Positions 31,201-32,544 of a DNA stretch of 33,945 bases are shown here, piece by piece. The stretch lies in IMG/VR virus record IMGVR_UViG_3300013104_000058, positions 1-33,945 of that record. One strand, given 5' to 3'. How positions within the stretch are numbered: position 1 is the first letter of the stretch; every line of letters begins with the position of its first letter. Under the pieces are notes generated by a model. The model saw nothing but the letters and a program-made list of their open reading frames with translations, did no database searches and was not told the DNA's origin. This DNA comes from a virus. Both the position numbers and the translations under genes were made by a program.

Positions 31201-32544
31201 CTACTGTCCCATGAACGACAGGGCTTGTGTGCCGAGCCAGGCGGTGTAGGCGGGTGGGATTGCTTCCCGGAGTCCTTTCCGGGTGCCGTGCCACTCGACG
31301 CCCATCAGGTGGTTCTGCAGGTCGGGGTCGGCGGGGGTGTAGCCGCCTTTGCGGATCAGCCTGGCTTCGACCGGGTCACGTCTGCCGCCGGTGTAGAGTC
31401 CGGCGACCTGGCGTCCGAGGTGGGTGCACTTCTTGGGGGCGGTCAACGCCAGTGGGGACTCGAAGAGTCGGTGTCGGTGGAGGTGTAGGAGTCGGGTGCC
31501 GTCGCGGGCGATCAGGTTGAACATGGTGCCGCAAAGCAGGACCGGGTCGCACAGGGGGGCGCCTTCGACGTTCTCGATGATCCAGGGGACCCCGATCGCC
31601 TCTAGGGCTCGCCGGGTGGGGGCGACGAGGTCGGGGTAGGTGCGGTCTGTGGCCCGGTTCCCTGCCGAATAGCGTTGGCAGGGCGGGGAGGCGTGGATCA
31701 GGTCGTATTCGTTCCCGTGGGCCAACAGGTAGCCGATCGCGTTGGCGGCGATGAACGGATACGGGTAGTAGCGGCGGTGGGTGGGGTCGTGGTCGACGCC
31801 GGTCACGTCGTATCCGGCTTGGTGGTAGCCGATCGCGGCGCCCCCTTGTCCGCAGTACAGGTCGAGGACCCGGGGTCGGGGTTCTGTGGACTGAACATGG
31901 TGGGCGAGGCTGACCCCGATGTGGTGGGTGTAGGCGGGGGGGATTGCTTCGGCGATGGACTTGCGGTTGCTGGTCCAGTCGATCCCCATCGCGTCCTGCC
32001 ATTCACCGATCTTGCCTTTGGCTCCGCCTTTGCCGTAGACGGCCCGGTAGGGGCCGTCGTAGTAGGTGCCGTGTTCCCAGCCTCGGACCCTGCCGCGATG
32101 TTCGAGGTGTCGGGGCTGGTCGACTGTGAAGCCGCTGCAGTTTCCGATCTCGAACCAGCGGTGCCGGACCACGCCGAGTCCGAACATCTCGCCGCACAGG
32201 ATGAGGTCTTTCCTCAGGTCGGAGCCGATCACGTTCTCGATGATGTAGGGGAGTCCGGTGTCTTTGAGGGCTCGTCGGGTCTGGGGGATCCAGTTGGGGT
32301 GTTCCCGTTTGCCTTTCTGGGTGCCTTTGGTGAGGGCGGAGGCCCGTTGGCAGGGGGGTGAGGCGTGGATCGCGTCGAAGCCCTCGGTGCCGTTGGCCGC
32401 GAGCCAGTCGAGGGCGTCGGACTGGATGAACTGGAACGGGTAGTCGGGTTGGGGGCGGTGGTCGATGCCGACGATGTCGAATCCGGCCCGCTGGTAGCCG
32501 ACGGCGGCACCGCCGACGCCGCAGTACAGGTCGAGGAGTCTCAT
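31201..32544 (-). CDS. tandem double C5-cytosine DNA methyltransferase
   Basis: 447 residues, ATG at 32544 overlapping the previous stop (ATGA). Domain 1 (~1-214) has motif I DLYCGVGGAAVGY, motif IV SPPCQRAS, motif VI IIENVIGS, RHRWFEIG and SIAEAIPPAYT. Domain 2 (~220-447) repeats all of them: DLYCGQGGAAIGY, SPPCQRYS, IIENVEGA, HRHRLFES and GLREAIPPAYT. Both halves look catalytically complete, each about 215 residues without a separate large target-recognition domain. A palindrome copy with one mismatch is read in frame at the junction (HVQSTEPRP). Such methyltransferases protect phage DNA from restriction; target sites are unknown. Confidence 0.88.
   Translation of the reverse strand: MRLLDLYCGVGGAAVGYQRAGFDIVGIDHRPQPDYPFQFIQSDALDWLAANGTEGFDAIHASPPCQRASALTKGTQKGKREHPNWIPQTRRALKDTGLPYIIENVIGSDLRKDLILCGEMFGLGVVRHRWFEIGNCSGFTVDQPRHLEHRGRVRGWEHGTYYDGPYRAVYGKGGAKGKIGEWQDAMGIDWTSNRKSIAEAIPPAYTHHIGVSLAHHVQSTEPRPRVLDLYCGQGGAAIGYHQAGYDVTGVDHDPTHRRYYPYPFIAANAIGYLLAHGNEYDLIHASPPCQRYSAGNRATDRTYPDLVAPTRRALEAIGVPWIIENVEGAPLCDPVLLCGTMFNLIARDGTRLLHLHRHRLFESPLALTAPKKCTHLGRQVAGLYTGGRRDPVEARLIRKGGYTPADPDLQNHLMGVEWHGTRKGLREAIPPAYTAWLGTQALSFMGQ
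31881..31896 (-). promoter_or_regulatory. 16-bp palindrome, copy 10 (one mismatch, methyltransferase junction)
   Basis: GTTCTGTGGACTGAAC on the plus strand: one base off a perfect palindrome. It falls exactly between methyltransferase domains 1 and 2. The sense strand ends ACAGAACC like the other copies; the 5' half-site has degenerated, as expected if it no longer functions. Confidence 0.8.

Follow-up and report, generated by a model that had tools for sequence, protein, structure and literature searches.

We identify in a phage-like DNA record a single open reading frame (ORF) that encodes two complete C5-cytosine DNA methyltransferases in tandem, and we consider it likely that this ORF arose when two adjacent phage methyltransferase genes of separate ancestry were joined by loss of the intervening stop and start codons, giving what is probably a two-target anti-restriction enzyme. 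The stretch of DNA analysed (hereafter the window) comprises all 33,945 bases of a record in IMG/VR (Table 1), which is probably a genome fragment of an uncultured, actinobacteriophage-like virus. Nearly all predicted genes of the window lie on the minus strand, with early genes at the right end, followed by genes for a ParB-like protein, a PHROG ‘RNase E’ family protein, the large terminase, portal, head and tail. As far as a single metagenomic contig can show, the fusion is real. Although unusual, it can be understood as a combination of familiar components and does not amount to a new type of system.

Table 1 Features of the window discussed in the text.
Feature	Position	Strand	Description
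Source record		 	33,945 bases, whole IMG/VR virus record IMGVR_UViG_3300013104_000058
ParB-like nuclease-domain protein	30477..31187	-	Downstream neighbour of the methyltransferase ORF
Fused tandem C5-cytosine DNA methyltransferase ORF	31201..32544	-	447 aa, single open frame; phrog_363, PF00145
Domain 1 (d1)	31873..32544	-	aa 1-224; complete C5-methyltransferase of Mycobacterium/Gordonia phage type (identity, clade support, AF2)
Domain 2 (d2)	31204..31872	-	aa 225-447; complete C5-methyltransferase, nearest Arthrobacter phage Odyssey395 (identity, insert, TRD layout, AF2)
Inter-domain linker	31870..31912	-	About aa 211-225; end of d1 C-terminal tail, palindrome, last residues before d2 motif I
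Junction palindrome copy	31881..31896	.	One mismatch; in frame, linker residues 217-222 (VQSTEP)
Exact palindrome copies	3838, 8541, 12981, 14938, 20775, 22650, 24851, 27625, 29618, 33340		

One open frame contains two complete methyltransferases

The ORF is open throughout from an ATG at 32544, with a GC3 of 0.85 overall (0.84 and 0.85 in the two halves). Profile searches matched its product in two stretches both to phrog_363 (E 1.5e-71, each domain covered at full length) and to PF00145 (E 5.7e-12; 46.1 bits against a cut-off of 22), while NCBIfam returned nothing specific. Each domain contains motif I (DLYCGxGGAA), motif IV (PPCQ), motif VI (ENV), a VIII-like motif (RHRxFE) and the AIPPAYT end. 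A preliminary description of this DNA had proposed two complete methyltransferases in one chain on the strength of motifs I, IV, VI and the AIPPAYT end, and this is borne out, with both full motif sets present in one open frame.

In an alignment with 51 relatives, 46 columns are conserved in 90% or more of these sequences. A single one of the columns is changed in d1 (V to I) and two are changed in d2: an Asp to Asn change in the motif III region and a Gly to Thr change in the target-recognition region (TRD). Because Asn replaces the usual motif III region Asp, activity of d2 is not to be assumed. We modelled the halves separately with AF2, since single-domain rows seemed to align on domain 1 in a joint alignment. 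The d1 model (pLDDT 93) has M.HaeIII as its best PDB match (Foldseek, E 4.9e-9), and the d2 model (pLDDT 86, with the TRD at residues 153-177 poorly modelled) matches DNMT2, DNMT3 and M.HaeIII at E 1.8e-7 and weaker. In these models both halves fold as C5-methyltransferases, an assignment with which the profile search agrees.

The two halves have different nearest relatives

d1 and d2 are 43% identical overall, with 52% identity in the core and 19% in the TRD. d1 shares 60-64% identity with single-domain enzymes of the Gordonia and Mycobacterium phages Phabuloso, Sheen, HINdeR and Yakult, and d2 shares 50-52% identity with those of Arthrobacter phages Odyssey395 (52%) and SilentRX and Streptomyces phage ToastyFinz. 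d2 also has in common with Odyssey395 and SilentRX an insert before RHRLFE and the layout of the TRD. In a tree of 51 rows, d1 falls in a clade of 12 rows with support of 100/99; all 1000 bootstrap trees place d1 in an 11-row clade without d2, and none of the 1000 joins the two halves as sisters.

These comparisons bear on whether a single methyltransferase gene was duplicated locally in tandem, with d2 and its TRD then diverging fast. The halves belong to the same family, have the same length and lie in tandem, as a duplication would predict, but d1 is far closer to enzymes of outside phages than to d2, and the insert of d2 and the arrangement of its TRD recur in enzymes of Arthrobacter phages. 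Approximately unbiased (AU) tests gave a divided answer: sister halves were rejected in a set of 15 sequences that had been picked after the first tree (p 0.0005 and 0.00015, the constraint costing 53 log units), but not with 51 rows (p 0.066), with 93 rows, where a short search missed the best tree (p 0.55), or with the core only (p 0.18). The preliminary description had not chosen between duplication and a pair of enzymes that recognise different targets. Separate phylogeny of the halves, together with their distinct TRDs, favours the second, with the larger AU sets withholding full agreement. Overall, the halves look like two lineages, and we regard duplication as unlikely.

The placement of d2 varies with the columns used. 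When the TRD columns are left out, the core of d2 joins enzymes of Streptomyces phages, which suggests that d2 may be a mosaic; its nearest relatives are Streptomyces-phage for the core and Arthrobacter-phage for the TRD, a pattern that could reflect a TRD swap. Arthrobacter phages including Odyssey395 are among the closest to the window by terminase, and Odyssey395 carries a d2-like methyltransferase gene directly before its terminase gene. Given both observations, we infer that d2 is likely the resident gene and d1 the newcomer.

Using the ParB-like neighbour gene as bait for relatives without the methyltransferase, we examined the two nearest relatives by neighbour genes, L058 and L059, whose terminase is about 82% identical to that of the window. 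The methyltransferase is absent from both. In its place, both have a small gene whose product contains RTX-like calcium-binding repeats (L058, about 4450-4900; L059, about 4190-4550).

Relation to known enzymes and predicted role

Single-domain PHROG 363 methyltransferases include Gordonia phage Phabuloso gp89, Mycobacterium phages Sheen gp59 and HINdeR gp54, and Arthrobacter phage Odyssey395 gp21. These enzymes resemble each half of the window protein in full-length alignment, motifs and short layout, but the family norm is one domain of about 220 residues, from which the window protein departs with two domains in 447. The other PHROG 363 enzymes that we found are encoded by separate single-domain genes, and the two of Rajelicia (gp84 and gp87) lie apart. 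A comparison of 132 family sequences, made up of d1, d2 and about 130 more drawn from viral contigs, phages and genomes, contained no second two-domain ORF, and a narrow literature search turned up no published m5C-m5C fusion in a phage.

Multispecific C5-methyltransferases are known from the Bacillus phages SPR, phi3T and rho11, in which one catalytic domain carries several TRDs. They resemble the window protein in being single phage proteins meant to mark more than one target, but in the window protein the catalytic domain is doubled as well. The fused double methyltransferases known from bacteria are adenine enzymes, as in M.FokI (PMC3990576) and MhoVII (PMC12898733). Like the window protein, M.FokI and M12.MhoVII (PMC3990576, PMC12898733) combine two complete methyltransferases of different ancestry in one chain; they are N6-adenine enzymes of bacterial restriction-modification systems, whereas the window protein is of the cytosine-C5 type, is encoded by a phage and has no recognised nuclease beside it.

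In M.FokI and MhoVII, fused enzymes of known function, each domain methylates one strand of a shared asymmetric site (PMC3990576, PMC12898733). This precedent raises the question of whether the window protein is a type IIS-like pair of that sort, left over from a former restriction-modification system. The window protein shares with these enzymes the presence of two methyltransferase domains in one chain, and its different TRDs would suit complementary half-targets. On the other hand, neither PHROG nor Pfam recognised a restriction endonuclease among the neighbouring genes scanned in this fragment record, and where other phages carry a single-domain relative of either half, no such partner adjoins it. 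We therefore consider a type IIS-like origin very improbable.

We favour instead an enzyme with two independent targets, in which each half probably reads a different sequence through its own TRD. The product would be a two-headed enzyme, each half predicted to flip out its cytosine and methylate it at C5 by the standard PPC-Cys / ENV-Glu / AdoMet chemistry. The two TRDs would mark phage DNA at two sequences at once, and this marking would protect it against host restriction; by analogy with the family, such an anti-restriction role is likely. That both halves are active, that they have two specificities and the order in which the genes came together are what we infer. If both halves are active, the protein would be a natural dual-specificity cytosine methyltransferase in which each specificity has a catalytic domain of its own. 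It would then counter several restriction systems of the host rather than one, and could supply two small m5C enzymes, each about 220 residues long.

Palindromes mark gene junctions in the window and its relatives

The palindrome GTTCTGTSSACAGAAC occurs in exactly ten perfect copies in the window, and matches with up to three mismatches number 13 in all, against 0.5 expected by chance. Outside the fusion point, nearly all copies lie at gene junctions in the order stop codon, palindrome, Shine-Dalgarno sequence, start codon, often directly after the stop and mostly 0-17 nt before the start. Two weaker matches lie inside coding sequence, at 10275-10290 (two mismatches) and 13970-13985 (three mismatches), and may be chance matches or decayed sites. 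The junction palindromes are probably binding sites of a phage DNA-binding protein. They resemble the 17-bp dyad repeats of Cluster O (PMC4351075), short repeats with 7-bp arms scattered in an actinobacteriophage genome, and the start-associated sequences of Cluster K (PMC3203893), scattered short repeats close to gene starts. They differ from both in sequence, and in lying at gene junctions, with one copy inside the fused gene.

L058 and L059 (L059/L085/L098/L099) carry palindromes of their own, GGTCAGTSACTGACC and GTTCACTSAGTGAAC respectively, each differing from that of the window. The 59.8-kb L059 record contains 38 copies. For eight of the nine testable window copies, L059 has its own palindrome on the corresponding junction or close to it, displaced by 0 to about 60 nt. 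The set as a whole seems to have acquired a new sequence with its locations preserved, as if tracking a binding protein of changed specificity. Separately, the 4.9-kb viral contig L028, whose tail genes show about 50% identity to those of the window, has the same palindrome as the window, GTTCTGTGCACAGAAC, at 552-567 and 4288-4303, one copy lying at the junction that matches window position 3838.

The linker as a probable former gene boundary

The preliminary description had noted a palindrome with one mismatch between the two halves; we find it there, read in frame as part of the linker and ending two residues before the RVLDLYCG of d2. Single-domain relatives terminate where this palindrome lies: homologues (n=129) end a median of 17 residues after AIPPAYT, and in the window protein the eleventh residue after this motif is where the palindrome starts. 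The earlier proposal that d2 could be made only by fusion very nearly holds. There is no in-frame ATG, GTG or TTG from codon 187 to codon 246, and the nearest in-frame starts are GTG247, already inside d2, and ATG186, inside d1. The latter has a weak Shine-Dalgarno sequence and is a possible internal start, from which translation would yield d2 with a 39-residue extension.

Since nearly all the other copies mark junctions, and since relatives have a palindrome of another sequence at these junctions, we read the linker most readily as the remnant of a gene boundary from which stop and start have been lost. The starting state would have been two ordinary short phage C5-methyltransferase genes side by side, separated by the usual boundary palindrome. 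Once gene 1 had lost its stop and gene 2 its start, the two would have merged into one chain, so that the palindrome now encodes the linker. We found no relative in which two methyltransferase genes are still separate with a palindrome between them, the methyltransferase-free L058 and L059 included. The ORF would thereby represent a gene fusion caught early, with the boundary element of two former genes still readable inside the protein.

An apparent fusion could also come from a sequencing or assembly artefact, in which the boundary between truly separate genes is hidden by a miscalled base, by an indel or by chimeric assembly. The ORF is known from one metagenomic virus record, short homopolymers and a high GC content mark the junction, and linker codons lie one substitution away from stop codons. 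Against this, a wrong base alone would need to mask two signals, the stop as well as the start, and GC3 is alike in the two halves. The linker also carries the phage’s own palindrome, which makes a chimeric join of different viruses at this point unlikely. We considered a simple indel and rejected it, because d1 would run on for 91 or 518 nt in the other two frames and would end near the junction in neither. We judge there to be only a small chance that the fusion is an artefact.

A further reading gives the palindromes a more active part: besides their regulatory role they would serve as joints for recombination, with d1 and d2 coming from different phages and joined at a shared boundary palindrome into a two-headed, two-target m5C enzyme. 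We hold this to be rather unlikely; if true, the fused enzyme would record modular gene capture through a phage-specific repeat.

Under our preferred reading of stop and start loss at a gene boundary, the damaged state of the fusion copy fits relaxed selection or loss of function after fusion, as judged from one substitution in one contig. Two other copies that are read in frame as protein and then followed by a start codon (24851 and 29618) are intact, unlike the fusion copy. At the first of these, a Mu F-like head protein (ORF 22969-25401, minus strand) reads in frame through the intact palindrome at 24851-24866 into the next gene, which is portal/protease-like and has its own Shine-Dalgarno sequence and ATG (24834). 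This read-through of the palindrome by the head protein is also kept in L059 (L085 10736).
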